Of a DNA stretch of 11,095 nucleotides, positions 3,886-10,151 are shown piece by piece. The DNA is from Solirubrobacteraceae bacterium (lineage in GTDB: Bacteria; Actinomycetota; Thermoleophilia; Solirubrobacterales; Solirubrobacteraceae). Below the pieces are notes generated by a model, which was not told the origin of the DNA, made no database searches, and saw only the letters and a program-made list of their open reading frames with translations. Every line of letters begins with the position of its first letter. Position 1 is the stretch's first letter. A program made the translations under genes and the position numbers. The DNA is taken from contig JANJUA010000442.1 in NCBI GenBank assembly GCA_024710825.1, positions 1 to 11,095 of the forward strand. Reading direction: 5' to 3'.

Positions 3886-4689
3886 CTAGCCCTGCAGCAG
3901 CGCGAGCACGCCCTGCGTCGACTGGTTCGCCTGCGCCAGCATCGACGTACCGGCCTGCTGGAGCACCTGGAGCTTCGTGAACTCGATCATCTGCTCGGCC
4001 ATGTCGACGTCGCGGATGCGCGACTCGGCCGCCACCAGGTTCTCCTGGTACGCGGTCGAGGCCTTCACCGAGTGCTCGAGGCGGTTCTGCACCGCGCCGA
4101 ACGTGGCGCGCGTGCCCGCGATCGAGTCGATCGCGGCGTCGAGGTTCGAGATCGCGGCCGCGGCCGACAGGTCGAAGTAGCCGGCCGGTAGGGCGCCGTT
4201 GAGGCTGATCGTCGGCACGGTGATGACCTGGCCGTCGTTGGCGCCGACCTGGAAGGTCACGGTGCCGCCCACGGCCAGGAACGTGATGCCGTTGAACTGG
4301 GCCTGAGAGCCGATCCGGTCGATCTCCGACGCGAGCTGGGCGACCTCGGACTGGATCGCCGACCGGTTGTCCGCCGACATCGTGCCGTTCTTGTACTGGA
4401 CCGCCAGCTCGCGCATGCGCTGGAGCATGGAGTGGACCTCGTCGAGGTTCGCCTCCGCGGTCTGGACGAGCGAGATGCCGTCCTGCATGTTGCGCTGCGC
4501 CTGCGCGAGGCCGCGGATCTGGCCGCGCATCTTCTCGGAGATGCCGAGACCGGCGGCGTCGTCGGACGCGCGGTTGATGCGGTAGCCGGACGACAGGCGC
4601 TCCATCGCCTTCGACATCTGGGCGCTGGTGCCGGTGAGTTGGCGATGCGTGTTGATCGCCTGGATGTTGTGGTTGATCCTCAGGGACAT
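3886..4689 (-). CDS. fliC: Flagellin
   Basis: This 267-residue protein polymerises into the flagellar filament outside the cell after type III export. The N-terminal D0/D1 region is strongly conserved (MSLRINHNIQAINTHRQL, LSSGYRINRASDDAAGLGISEKMR, then the QNxxDG and AQFNG areas). The C-terminal D1/D0 ends RIRDVDMAEQMIEFTK followed by QQAGTSMLAQANQS. Only about 40 residues separate the two halves, so it is a minimal flagellin without outer D2/D3 domains, like Bacillus Hag. The ATG at 4687-4689 lies inside the csrA 3' end (10-bp overlap). Its AAGGA ribosome-binding site, 9 nt upstream, is in the loop of a small hairpin, consistent with CsrA repression. There is no room for a dedicated promoter directly upstream. 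fliD and fliS, often next to flagellin, are not here. Confidence 0.97.
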   Translation of the reverse strand: MSLRINHNIQAINTHRQLTGTSAQMSKAMERLSSGYRINRASDDAAGLGISEKMRGQIRGLAQAQRNMQDGISLVQTAEANLDEVHSMLQRMRELAVQYKNGTMSADNRSAIQSEVAQLASEIDRIGSQAQFNGITFLAVGGTVTFQVGANDGQVITVPTISLNGALPAGYFDLSAAAAISNLDAAIDSIAGTRATFGAVQNRLEHSVKASTAYQENLVAAESRIRDVDMAEQMIEFTKLQVLQQAGTSMLAQANQSTQGVLALLQG

Positions 4690-4931
4690 GCCTGCGAGTC
4701 CTTTCGCTGCTTGGTGACGGGCAGGTCGCCGGGGAGGACGGTCGGGTCGGCCTTGGCCGCCGCGGCGTTCTCCTCCTTGACCGAGCGCCAGATCTCCTCC
4801 CGGTACACGGGAAGGGAGCGGGGCGCGTCGATCCCGATGCGCACGCTCGAACCGCTGACCTCGATCACCTCGATGACGGTGTCGTCGCCCAGCATGATCT
4901 TCTCGCCGGGACGTCGGGTGATGATGAGCAT
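4680..4931 (-). CDS. csrA: CsrA translational regulator
   Basis: This 83-residue RNA-binding protein begins MLIITRRPGEKIMLGDD, continues with VRIGIDAPRSLPVYREEIW, and so contains the whole CsrA core, including the conserved Arg44 that contacts RNA. CsrA dimers bind GGA in hairpin loops, usually over ribosome-binding sites. A C-terminal tail of about 30 residues (Ala/Lys/Asp rich) makes it longer than the E. coli protein (61) and somewhat longer than the Bacillus one (74). The ATG at 4929-4931 has a strong AAGGAGG site 10 nt upstream; the frame remains open further upstream but homology starts at MLIITRR. The gene follows fliW by 59 bp and overlaps fliC by 10 bp, the standard fliW-csrA-flagellin arrangement in which CsrA represses flagellin and FliW relieves it. 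Its own ribosome-binding site also looks like a CsrA site. Confidence 0.96.
   Translation of the reverse strand: MLIITRRPGEKIMLGDDTVIEVIEVSGSSVRIGIDAPRSLPVYREEIWRSVKEENAAAAKADPTVLPGDLPVTKQRKDSQACP
4694..4707 (-). promoter_or_regulatory. Candidate CsrA-binding hairpin covering the fliC ribosome-binding site
   Basis: On the transcript the sequence reads GCGA, loop AAGGAC, UCGC: a perfect 4-bp stem with a six-base loop containing ARGGA. This loop is the fliC Shine-Dalgarno (9 nt before the AUG). It also lies within codons of the csrA 3' end. CsrA is known to bind GGA in hairpin loops and, in Bacillus, to cover the hag ribosome-binding site. A second GGA is in fliC codons 4-5 (4677-4679), 22 nt from the first. 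The stem is short, so the structure itself is uncertain. Confidence 0.6.
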
Positions 4932-4936
4932 CTGGT

Positions 4937-4990: not shown

Positions 4991-5434
4991 CTACGCCGCC
5001 CGCTCCTCCACGTCGGACGCGAAGAGCGGGGCCCGGACCGGGGCGTCCGGGGCCTGGTTGATGACCTGGTGGCCGAACCCGTTCGAGACAAGGATCGGCG
5101 CGCGGAGGTTGGCACTGAAGTCCTCCAACGACTCTGCCGCGCGCACGGTCACGTACACGGCGGTGTCGTCGTCGGACGCGATGCCCAGCCGCTCGACCTC
5201 GTCGTCGCCGATCTCCACCTCGTAGGACGGAAAGAAGCGCCACGGGTTCGTCAGCGGCAGGGCCAGCGCCGGGTCGTCGAGCGAGTGCAGCCACACGAAT
5301 GCGGCGTCGTCGCTGCGGGCGAGCAGCGTGTAGCGGCTCCCCCCCAGCCCGATGAGCCCGTGAGGGAACTCGAGCACCGACTCCGCGGAGATCTCGAGAT
5401 CCCCGACGCGCGTGGATTGCAGGGTCACGGCCAT
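4991..5434 (-). CDS. fliW: Flagellar assembly factor FliW
   Basis: This 147-residue protein is the CsrA antagonist of the flagellin feedback switch. It binds CsrA and releases flagellin mRNA, and is itself sequestered by unexported flagellin. Family marks are the start MAVTLQSTRVGDLEI, then LEFPHGLIGL, FVWLHSLDDPALALPLTNPW, the acidic EIGDDEVERLG segment, a VYVTVR strand, the FSANLRAPILVS core motif and a final hydrophobic/polar stretch. I chose the ATG at 5432-5434 because GGAGG lies 5 nt upstream and family alignment starts there. An alternative GTG at 5468-5470 would add 12 basic/polar residues and overlap the flgL stop as GTGA, but it has no good ribosome-binding site. It is followed by csrA and fliC, its functional partners. 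Confidence 0.94.
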   Translation of the reverse strand: MAVTLQSTRVGDLEISAESVLEFPHGLIGLGGSRYTLLARSDDAAFVWLHSLDDPALALPLTNPWRFFPSYEVEIGDDEVERLGIASDDDTAVYVTVRAAESLEDFSANLRAPILVSNGFGHQVINQAPDAPVRAPLFASDVEERAA

Positions 5435-8286: not shown

Positions 8287-8546
8287 CAGCCGGCCTCGTA
8301 GATCGTGTGGGCGAGGCCGATGCCGCCGCCGGCGAGGACGGCGTCGGCCATGGCGTCTCCGAGCAGATGGGCGTAGGGACCCTCACGCAGCGGCGCGCCG
8401 GCGGTGGCGGTGAGCTGCTTGGTCAGCTCGCCTACGAGCTGGCGCTCGAAGCCGAGGGCCGCCTGGTAGCGCTCTCGGTCGGCGCGCGGAGCCTGGCGCA
8501 CGTCGGCGGGAAGGAGCGCGCCGTCGATGGGGGGCAGGACGCTCAT
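8286..8546 (-). CDS. flgJ: FlgJ N-terminal-like rod-binding protein (no muramidase domain)
   Basis: This 86-residue protein corresponds to the rod-binding half of FlgJ. It has a central ALGFERQLVGELTKQLTAT helix (equivalent to the FExxFLxxLLKxM part of the family) and a C-terminal segment YAHLLGDAMADAVLAGGGIGLAHTIYEAG, resembling the family ending of a short helix, GGGLGLA and a final helix. The peptidoglycan hydrolase domain of proteobacterial FlgJ is absent, so another enzyme must open the wall. The ATG (8544-8546) overlaps the flgG stop as ATGA. There is no Shine-Dalgarno, suggesting translation depends on flgG. The position between flgG and flgN fits a rod-assembly protein. Confidence 0.78.
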   Translation of the reverse strand: MSVLPPIDGALLPADVRQAPRADRERYQAALGFERQLVGELTKQLTATAGAPLREGPYAHLLGDAMADAVLAGGGIGLAHTIYEAG

Positions 8547-9280
8547 CGCTTGAGCTGGTTGGCGATCTGCGCCATCTGGTCCTGCATGTCGATGGCCCGG
8601 CTCGCAAGCGTGTAGCTGCGCTGCGCGAGCATCATGTCGGTCATCGCCGTGCCCATGTCGACGTCGGAGGTCTCCAGGAGGCCCTGGCGCAGCCTGGCGT
8701 CGGCGCCGGCGCGCACCGGGTTGCCGCTCGCCTGCGTCGGCAGGTGCAGGTTGCCGCCGGCGGGCTGGAGCCGGTCGGGGGCGGCGACCGTCACGAGGCC
8801 GATGCGGCCGAGGACGGCTCCGTCGGCGCCGGTGACCGCGCCGTCGGCGGAGATGGCGACGTCGGTCTCGCCGACGCCCTCGGGGATCCGGACGGGTGGC
8901 TGGAGCGGCAGGCCGTCGGCGCGGAGGCGGCCCTGCCCGTCGACCGTGAGCTGGCCGTTGCGCGTCAGGGCGACGCTGCCGTCGGCCCGGCGCACCTGGA
9001 GCCAGCCCGTGCCCTCGATCGCGACGTCGAGCGGCCGGTCGGTGGTCTTGTAGGACGCTCCTGCGCCGCCGCGGCCGATGACCGTCGCGGCGGCGCCGGC
9101 GCCCTCCACGTTGCCCGGCAGGCCGCCCGGGCCCGCCGCGCTGTAGACGAGGTCGCGGAACGCGACGCGCAGGTGCTTGTAGCCGACCGTGTTGACGTTG
9201 GCTATGTCGTTGGACAGCGCGTCCAGACGGTGCTGCTGCGCTGCCATGCCGGCAGCGGCCGAGTACATGCCTTCGAGCAT
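8543..9280 (-). CDS. flgG: Flagellar distal rod protein FlgG
   Basis: This 245-residue protein forms the axial rod of the basal body. It begins MLEGMYSAAAGMAAQQHRLD and has the family motif LSNDIANVNTVGYK. A middle part follows with DRPLDVAIEGTGWLQVRRADG, the LTRNGQLTVDGQGRL beta motif, and a C-terminal helix LLETSDVDMGTAMTDMMLAQ that packs against the N-terminus. The ATG at 9278-9280 has ACAAGGA just upstream with a 5-nt spacer after the final A. An in-frame extension to 9385 (35 more codons through the repeats) is unlikely because rod proteins start at this MLEGMY position. A long leader with two repeated stem-loops precedes it, and the FlgJ-like gene overlaps its stop. Confidence 0.93.
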   Translation of the reverse strand: MLEGMYSAAAGMAAQQHRLDALSNDIANVNTVGYKHLRVAFRDLVYSAAGPGGLPGNVEGAGAAATVIGRGGAGASYKTTDRPLDVAIEGTGWLQVRRADGSVALTRNGQLTVDGQGRLRADGLPLQPPVRIPEGVGETDVAISADGAVTGADGAVLGRIGLVTVAAPDRLQPAGGNLHLPTQASGNPVRAGADARLRQGLLETSDVDMGTAMTDMMLAQRSYTLASRAIDMQDQMAQIANQLKR

Positions 9281-9285
9281 CGGGT

Positions 9286-9290
9286 TCCTT
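9286..9290 (-). promoter_or_regulatory. flgG ribosome-binding site resembling a CsrA core site
   Basis: The transcript reads ACAAGGA at and just before these bases, matching the ACARGGA core of the known CsrA consensus. It is 5 nt from the flgG AUG. A possible CGGG/CCCG pairing (9281-9284 with 9299-9302) would put it in a large loop and compete with the adjacent repeat stem. Confidence 0.4.
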
Positions 9291-9294
9291 GTCG

Positions 9295-9328
9295 GAGCCC
9301 CGGCCCCCGCTCCCTGCGGTCCAGCCGG
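9295..9328 (-). repeat. 34-bp direct repeat, copy 1 (flgG-proximal), encoding a stem-loop
   Basis: This is identical to copy 2 at 33 of 34 positions, with copy starts 50 bp apart. In the transcript it folds into an outer stem CCGGC/GCCGG and an inner stem CCGC/GCGG, all G-C pairs, split by a UGGA/GG internal loop and capped by AGGGA (9311-9315). The single difference from copy 2 is in the cap. Confidence 0.85.
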
Positions 9329-9344
9329 CGCATCTAAACGTGGA

Positions 9345-9378
9345 GAGCCCCGGCCCCCGCTCCTTGCGGTCCAGCCGG
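9345..9378 (-). repeat. 34-bp direct repeat, copy 2 (flgG-distal), encoding a stem-loop
   Basis: It has the same 5 + 4 bp stem as copy 1, capped by AAGGA (9361-9365). Both copies lie in the 187-bp gap between flgF and flgG. The 50-bp copy spacing is not a multiple of three, arguing against a coding repeat; about five DNA helical turns would also suit a two-site protein operator. Confidence 0.85.
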
Positions 9379-9467
9379 TCCACATACCTATGGTCAGCCC
9401 GGTCGTCGGTCGGCGATGCCGGGACTTGAATCAGGGGTGGACGGGGATATGAGCGCCCGAGGCCCGC

Positions 9468-10151
9468 TCAGCCGAGGCCGGCGACCTGGGTGGCGGCTCG
9501 CTCGAGGGTCGAGTCGATGGTCTGGATCGCCTTCTGGCCGGCCTCGAAGGAGCGCATCGAGGCGATCATGTCCACCATGGCGCGCGCGGGGTCGACGCCG
9601 GAGCCCTCCAGGGCCCCGGCGGTGGCGGTGCCCGTGGCCTGGCCGGCCGCCGCGCCGGTGAAGAGGGAGTCGCCGGCCTTCTCCGCGCCCTCCAGCGCGA
9701 AGACGCCCAGCCGCCCCGGGTCCACCCTGCCGTCGCGCACGTCGATCGTGGCTCCGTTCTGCGTGAGGACGGGATTGCCGAGCTGGTCGGTGAGGATGCC
9801 GCCCGCGCCCTGCGTGAACGCCCCGTTGCGGGTGTAGCGCACGCCGTCATCGGTGCGCACGGCGAAGTGCCCCTCGCCGGCGACCGCGAAGTCGAGCGGG
9901 TCGTTCGTGGTGCGCAGCGGCTGCGGCGCGAGGTCCGTGACGGTCTCGGCGATCTGGGCGCCGAACCCGAGCGGGCCCACAGCCTGGCCGGTGCGGGTGT
10001 TGGTGAGGAGCAGGTCGCCGAACGCCTGCTGCGCCGAGCGGTCGGCCTTGTAGCCGGGCGTCGACGCGTTCGCGAGGTCGTTGGCGAGCTGGTTCTGGCG
10101 TACCTGCTCGGCGAGCATGCCGGAGGCCGCGATGTAGAGGCCGCGTTCCAT
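9468..10151 (-). CDS. flgF: Flagellar proximal rod protein FlgF/FlhO-like
   Basis: This 227-residue rod protein is a paralogue of FlgG. It starts MERGLYIAASGMLAEQVRQN and carries LANDLANASTPGYKADR, TNDPLDFAVAGEGHFAVRT, VRYTRNGAFTQGAGG and a C-terminal helix GVDPARAMVDMIASMRSFEA. FlgF is usually the proximal rod partner of FlgG; in Gram-positives the pair is FlhO/FlhP, and order and length fit that scheme. The ATG at 10149-10151 has only a weak AGG upstream, and the frame is open further upstream, but homology begins here. It starts 37 bp from the divergent fliK-like gene, so its promoter must overlap that spacer or the neighbouring coding sequence. Assignment as FlgF rather than another FlgG-family rod protein is less certain than the family. 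Confidence 0.87.
   Translation of the reverse strand: MERGLYIAASGMLAEQVRQNQLANDLANASTPGYKADRSAQQAFGDLLLTNTRTGQAVGPLGFGAQIAETVTDLAPQPLRTTNDPLDFAVAGEGHFAVRTDDGVRYTRNGAFTQGAGGILTDQLGNPVLTQNGATIDVRDGRVDPGRLGVFALEGAEKAGDSLFTGAAAGQATGTATAGALEGSGVDPARAMVDMIASMRSFEAGQKAIQTIDSTLERAATQVAGLG

Follow-up and report, generated by a model that had tools for sequence, protein, structure and literature searches.

An RNA hairpin with an internal-loop GGA at flagellar flgG and flgE of Actinomycetota and Bacillota and inside fliK of Actinomycetota

What is the twin repeat that precedes the distal-rod gene flgG in a Solirubrobacteraceae bacterium, and is it a private feature of this leader or part of something wider? 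The window, i.e. the whole stretch of DNA analysed here, is the complete contig C184 of 11,095 bases from a draft genome (G000; 3.04 Mb, 444 contigs). Its flagellar genes lie on the minus strand, with flgF ending at 9468, flgG starting at 9280, and fliW and csrA further downstream (Table 1). The original prediction described two 34-nt repeats as stem-loops capped by ARGGA and proposed a multi-site CsrA leader of flgG. The description of the repeats was confirmed: the copies are 33/34 identical and 50 nt apart from start to start, each copy folded alone as minus-strand RNA gives CCGGC(U)/(G)GCCGG plus CCGC/GCGG, the caps are AGGGA and AAGGA as described, the AAGGA of the flgG Shine-Dalgarno sequence is present, and csrA lies on the same strand and in the same cluster as flgG.

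Table 1. Features of the window around the flgG leader and the csrA-fliW genes
Feature	Position	Strand	Remarks
flgG, distal rod protein	8543..9280	-	PF00460, PF22692, PF06429
flgF-like gene, upstream of flgG	9468..10151	-	
csrA, candidate RNA-binding protein	4680..4934	-	PF02599
fliW	4991..5431	-	PF02623
flgG Shine-Dalgarno AAGGA, not within the hairpins	9286..9290	-	ATG at 9280
Hairpin copy a, the upstream one on the transcript	9345..9378	-	covariance model core 9349-9380
Copy a, conserved internal-loop GGA	9372-9370	-	
Copy a, cap AAGGA	9365-9361	-	
Hairpin copy b	9295..9328	-	covariance model core 9299-9330
Copy b, conserved internal-loop GGA	9322-9320	-	
Copy b, cap AGGGA	9315-9311	-	
Putative sigma-28/WhiG-like promoter, TTCAAG-N15-CCGACGA	9403..9430	-	consensus match only; pattern picked by eye

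The structure rests on comparative evidence, because the stability of the single hairpins is modest (z -1.1 to -1.8 against shuffles) and in a 211-nt fold copies a and b form no separate hairpins but pair with one another, with a z of 0.01 that is no better than shuffles. Thermodynamic stability alone was thus unconvincing as support for the hairpins. A leader search over 61 genomes gave 26 matches, and the flgG upstream regions were read in 21 of these genomes, the window's included. A hairpin alignable to that of the window was present in 18 of the 21 and absent in G031, G034 and G018, and 15 of the 18 carriers, including the congener G003, have a single copy. The element also keeps its place at flgG where flgF is not adjacent, at a distance of 1.8-4.1 kb in G001, G033, G037 and G040. 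A pattern picked by eye, a CTCAAG-like box 14-16 nt ahead of a CCGA-like box, recurs in 19 of these 21 upstream regions. In their sequence these boxes come close to the flagellar sigma-factor consensus, TAAA / GCCGATAA in the available part of PMC8325347, and they persist in relatives even without an adjacent flgF.

The conserved element has two stems separated by a 3x1 internal loop GGA/R, an outer one and an inner one of CCNC/GNGG that carries a free apical loop. The pattern that is kept reads C-Y-GGA-CC...GG-R-R-G, in which GGA lies opposite A, sometimes G, in an asymmetric loop between the two stems; a kink-turn geometry for this loop was considered and seemed not to fit. Two alignments were scored. 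In A4, a MAFFT alignment of the core with 47 rows (45 distinct), 92.2% of cells were paired as compared to 53.2% at best for slid pairings, seven of the ten pairs changed on both sides, and the covariation score was 0.286 as against 0.136 in shuffled alignments, with 0 of 500 shuffles as high. A5, which was fitted to the model and restricted to E<=0.003 sites from 81 chosen loci, has 88 rows (84 distinct) and gave 91.8% of cells paired (slid pairings <=54.3%) and a score of 0.336 as against 0.142, which 0 of 500 shuffles reached; its number of pairs changing on both sides was matched by 7 of 500 shuffles. The internal-loop GGA was found in 83 of the 84 distinct sites. The exception is flgE of G002, reading GGC, and flgE of G024, which lies outside A5, also has GGC in place of GGA. 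Two nucleotides 5' of the conserved GGA, 83 of 84 sites have C, one has U and none has A; the base in between is a pyrimidine.

Covariation in both alignments together with this GGA supports an RNA element in the flgG leader in which GGA is involved, as the original prediction held. The relatives bear out its compensatory stem changes, and they place the near-invariant GGA in the internal loop and not in the cap. The earlier fold was correct but left out the conserved part, namely the GGA in the 5' strand of the internal loop. The ARGGA cap, taken as the key feature, holds for the window's genome and two congeners and fails elsewhere: five of the 84 distinct sites have an apical GGA, and among the 88 aligned rows these correspond to the six copies of G000, G001 and G002 and to no others. 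The apical loop is otherwise variable, with 60 loop types over the 84 distinct sites, and the congener G003 has the cap ACUU.

The inverted repeat is also present in the DNA, and a DNA-level element or a generic repeat would account for that much. This reading is nevertheless extremely improbable, as compensatory changes flank an asymmetric loop, the orientation towards the gene is fixed in the assigned sites, and the genome of the window has no dispersed copies. The repeat searched against its own genome gave a next match past itself at E 0.091, and the third model, R3, found four sites there at E<=0.005, each flagellar, namely flgG twice, flgE and fliK. Within the window the element model found the two flgG copies and nothing else at E<=1. 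Plasmid homologues of the flgG leader were searched and none was found, and neither copy is followed on its 3' side by the run of U expected of an intrinsic terminator.

The doubling of the hairpin is confined to one lineage: among the 21 flgG upstream regions only those of G000, G001 and G002, i.e. the window's genome and two congeners, have two copies. The twin form is best explained as a duplication, specific to this lineage, of a cis-acting RNA element that is itself conserved, and the two copies may have been homogenised within species. In one of these congeners the leader and flgG start (G001:C1:63355-63573, locus L038) share 91% DNA identity with the window, and the FlgG proteins share 67% identity.

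The element is not specific to flgG, contrary to the earlier proposal, and the same structure occurs at flgE and fliK. A first model, R1, run over 146 genomes of the family, had matches in 34, among them a site directly before flgE in the window's own genome (L132), and flgE of G001, of G003 and of other genera also carries the element. The core model R2, run over 399 genomes of the class, had matches in 95 at E<=0.02. Of the sites that R2 yielded, 95 unique and chiefly better-scoring ones were classified: 29 lie before flgE (18-77 nt), 21 before flgG (18-97 nt) and 14 are of the fliK type, and the other 31 were matched to none of the three, although one of these (G221:C132) is probably an flgG cut by the contig end. 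When a genome was counted as flagellated by a TIGR02488 match at E<=1e-30, the model matched 60 of 86 flagellated and 35 of 313 other genomes of the class. A match assigned to a flagellar gene was found in 52 of the 86, which is an undercount, and 26 of the 86 had no match at E<=0.02; strict filters lose weak matches. Run over 22 whole genomes that were chosen as motif carriers, R3 gave 50 sites at E<=0.05. Of these, 46 belong to flgG, flgE or fliK, and many of the 46 had been in the training set; the other four are G001:4176571, G011:730596, G033:4917955 and G148:2760972.

The third type of site lies inside the coding region of fliK, about 36-49 codons past the first plausible start and 2.1-2.6 kb before flgE wherever both were seen. 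Nine of the 14 fliK-type sites were identified as FliK by Pfam and the remaining five share the same peptide, while a tenth tested ORF (L303) was not FliK by Pfam and was rejected as a chance match. Eighteen fliK sites are read in one frame, with the codons GCC, CGG/TGG, ACC, GCA/GCC, any, GCG, GAA/GAG/GGG and GGC; because the model found these sites, part of this codon constancy reflects how they were selected. The swap from Arg to Trp preserves Y-GGA-CC, that from Glu to Gly preserves the purine, and the free codon is the apical loop. The element was also found in a second frame, as AAGPLPGEL in G181 and AAGPAQGEL in G221, and in a third, as KDLDLQEEGL in G561, where the stem letters are quite different and still pair. 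The FliK domain was confirmed in all three of these genomes, and the sites score modestly (27, 17 and 25 bits, respectively). With one RNA read in three different frames, conservation of the FliK peptide was rejected as an explanation of the fliK copy, and it is the RNA, not the peptide, that is conserved. The model that detected the fliK site of the window's genome had other fliK sites in its training set but not this one; the contig end cuts the reading frame of this site short, no Pfam family matches it, and its identity as FliK comes from N-terminal resemblance. The fliK copy is degenerate in the congener G001 (14 bits by R2, 18 bits by R3) and was not convincingly found in G054, where it is weak or absent.

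The element extends beyond the class. An exact-pattern scan, blind to gene content, of one genome per species in 84,980 species matched 89 stretches. Among the 80 loci listed, ten have an flgG- or flgE-like ORF within 500 nt downstream, four in Actinomycetota (two Solirubrobacterales, one Conexibacter and one named to phylum only) and six in Bacillota; the remaining 70, without such an ORF, are presumably chance. Five of the Bacillota six have the element before both flgE and flgG and one before flgE only, and two of these flgE sites score weakly (E 0.011 and 0.042). A search of fliK in four Bacillota flgE regions (L330-L333) found no copy, with fliK confirmed in two of them, and the fliK copy is seen in Actinomycetota only. 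A T-box leader (RF00230) was also noted in a Bacillota relative (L205, 746-1013), which is unrelated to the element. A sample of 396 genomes of the phylum had matches in 22 at E<=0.005; of 19 sites examined, six are flagellar and 13 have no assigned flagellar gene. Four further families of Actinomycetota have flgE or flgG downstream of the element (G703, G561, G571 and G448).

When 18 sites were folded, a second predicted hairpin, with a stem of mostly 6-8 bp, appeared directly 3' of the element in Bacillota and in some other Actinomycetota. Its loop is often near GGANYGAYWGAA (L222, L223, L225, L226, L391, L393, L398 and L399), and it is not present at all 18 sites, being absent for example at flgE of G703, G181 and G221. 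This downstream hairpin with its recurring loop and the conserved internal loop are what a small aptamer would predict, i.e. a riboswitch that senses a second messenger or another motility signal. The core of about 31 nt has no obvious expression platform, the fliK site is placed within a coding region and no Rfam family matches the motif, and a riboswitch is therefore quite unlikely.

The element may bear on the question of how translation of rod, hook and ruler is matched to the state of flagellum assembly. The placement of the element near the starts of linked mRNAs, with a conserved asymmetric loop between covarying stems, points to a site for a trans-acting factor in translation, and its position, shortly before the start codon of flgG and flgE and near the beginning of the fliK coding region, suits control of translation initiation or early elongation. 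From these sequence features we consider it somewhat probable that the element is a protein-binding RNA hairpin that coordinates translation of the distal rod, the hook and, in Actinomycetota, the hook ruler. This main reading rests on two findings, that the element precedes flgG and flgE in more than one phylum and that fliK of Actinomycetota reads it in three frames. The element marks flgG and flgE mRNAs in Actinomycetota and Bacillota and fliK mRNA in Actinomycetota; an RNA-binding protein may read the internal loop and gate translation of the three mRNAs jointly, and rod, hook and ruler would thereby be made in step with assembly. A small-molecule ligand or a role in RNA stability would leave the same sequence signature. 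A hairpin for RNA processing or stabilisation, such as a ribonuclease site that sets the mRNA stoichiometry of rod, hook and ruler, is suggested by the strong GC hairpin between flgF and flgG and, in the fliK-flgE region, ahead of flgE. It is unlikely all the same, as the conserved asymmetric loop exceeds the needs of a stability hairpin and the element lies behind the promoter-like site even in the four genomes with a distant flgF.

The candidate binder encoded in the window is CsrA, which would read the internal-loop GGA, and in the twin lineage also the ARGGA caps and the Shine-Dalgarno sequence, and repress translation of rod, hook and ruler with FliW as antagonist. We hold this version as tentative, and the identity of the binder as CsrA equally so; a protein other than CsrA is a serious candidate, although it too falls short of an even chance. 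The near-universal GGA is what a CsrA leader is expected to contain. Moreover, of 36 genomes chosen because they carry the motif, 32 have csrA, and in the window it shares the cluster of flgG; some of the four absences may be assembly gaps. In the available part of PMC4894983, co-immunoprecipitation with CsrA of C. jejuni enriches, in two data columns, the mRNAs of flgE (68x, 7x) and flgG2 (44x, 77x), whereas those of flgG (1.4x, 1.3x) and fliK (4.1x, 1.2x) are barely enriched in the same columns. The canonical CsrA site in that text is ANGGA in an apical hairpin loop, and the flaA leader of C. jejuni has two such ANGGA stem-loops; the conserved GGA of the element, in contrast, follows C-Y (83 of 84 sites) and never A-N, and it lies in an internal loop; the twin lineage has an apical GGA in addition. 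Among flagellated genomes, an assigned motif was found in 47 of the 76 that have csrA and in 5 of the 10 that lack it (Fisher p 0.51; assigned sites are undercounted), and csrA is also present in 108 of 313 non-flagellated members of the class (76 of 86 flagellated, 184 of 399 overall). The absence of csrA was rejected as proof against CsrA, because the contig of G201 ends 3.5 kb from its flgG and flagellar matches are few in G221 and G293.

What remains of the multi-site CsrA leader of the original prediction is the RNA element and its GGA; the ARGGA caps as the conserved basis and the restriction to flgG did not hold. Both copies do hold ARGGA in the window's genome and the two congeners, with the cap changing between A and G at R only, but elsewhere the cap is free and the GGA/R internal loop is kept, and the element has targets other than flgG, so an flgG-specific leader built on ARGGA caps is very unlikely. 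On the genomic side, two csrA paralogues were observed in the genome of the window (G000:C381:10862-11020 and window 4773-4931), and at least two csrA genes in the 18 searched members of its family, likewise in the five of a sister family. On the minus strand, csrA with its end and the flagellin gene with its start share positions 4680-4689 of the window, an arrangement which suggests that flagellin may be translationally coupled to csrA.

A bolder proposal, to which we give less than an even chance, is an ancient RNA code for the rod-hook stage, in which a hairpin on the distal-rod and hook mRNAs of at least two phyla, and on actinobacterial fliK in any frame, would let a dedicated factor couple translation, or delivery of the mRNA to the export gate, to assembly. 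One RNA mark conserved across phyla and captured by a 31-position model provides a direct handle on the coordination of rod, hook and ruler, and it adds to the known RNAs a structured one without a match in Rfam 15 and with an unusual member embedded in coding sequence.

The original prediction knew of no described equivalent, and none was found in the literature searched, outside which subscription papers and preprints mostly fall; the element was apparently not catalogued before. The actinobacterial flagellar genes are treated in PMC10746217, the available part of which does not mention leaders. No Rfam 15 family matched at the motif in the window (E<=5) or at 15 other loci (seven at E<=3, eight at E<=1), and the covariance model of the flg-Rhizobiales RNA (RF01736) likewise gave no match in the window (E<=5) or at these 15 loci; such Rfam matches as were obtained lie away from the motif. 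Guanidine-II (mini-ykkC) RNAs carry tandem small similar hairpins in a leader. They share the twin leader hairpins with the window but differ in loops and genes, and the twin form of the present element, unlike tandem guanidine-II, is found only in three congeners. As Lee and Hughes reportedly found in 2006, the FlgE protein of Salmonella is under post-transcriptional control; that case concerns a different phylum, and the two are likened by their target alone, a hook protein controlled post-transcriptionally. In B. subtilis, CsrA and FliW act on the hag leader. The flg-Rhizobiales RNA motif is, like the element, a structured RNA linked to flg genes, for which it is named in its catalogue, but the table in the available part of PMC2864571 lists it in Rhizobiales only, and the present element is without an Rfam 15 match. 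There is also a likeness in form to the CsrA/FliW flagellin leaders (hag, and flaA in the available part of PMC4894983), which are also flagellar mRNA leaders with GGA and stem-loops near the start codon, and csrA and fliW are both in the flagellar cluster of the window. The element differs from these leaders in that its GGA lies in a 3x1 internal loop after C-Y where theirs is an apical ANGGA, and in that its targets are the rod, the hook and the ruler.
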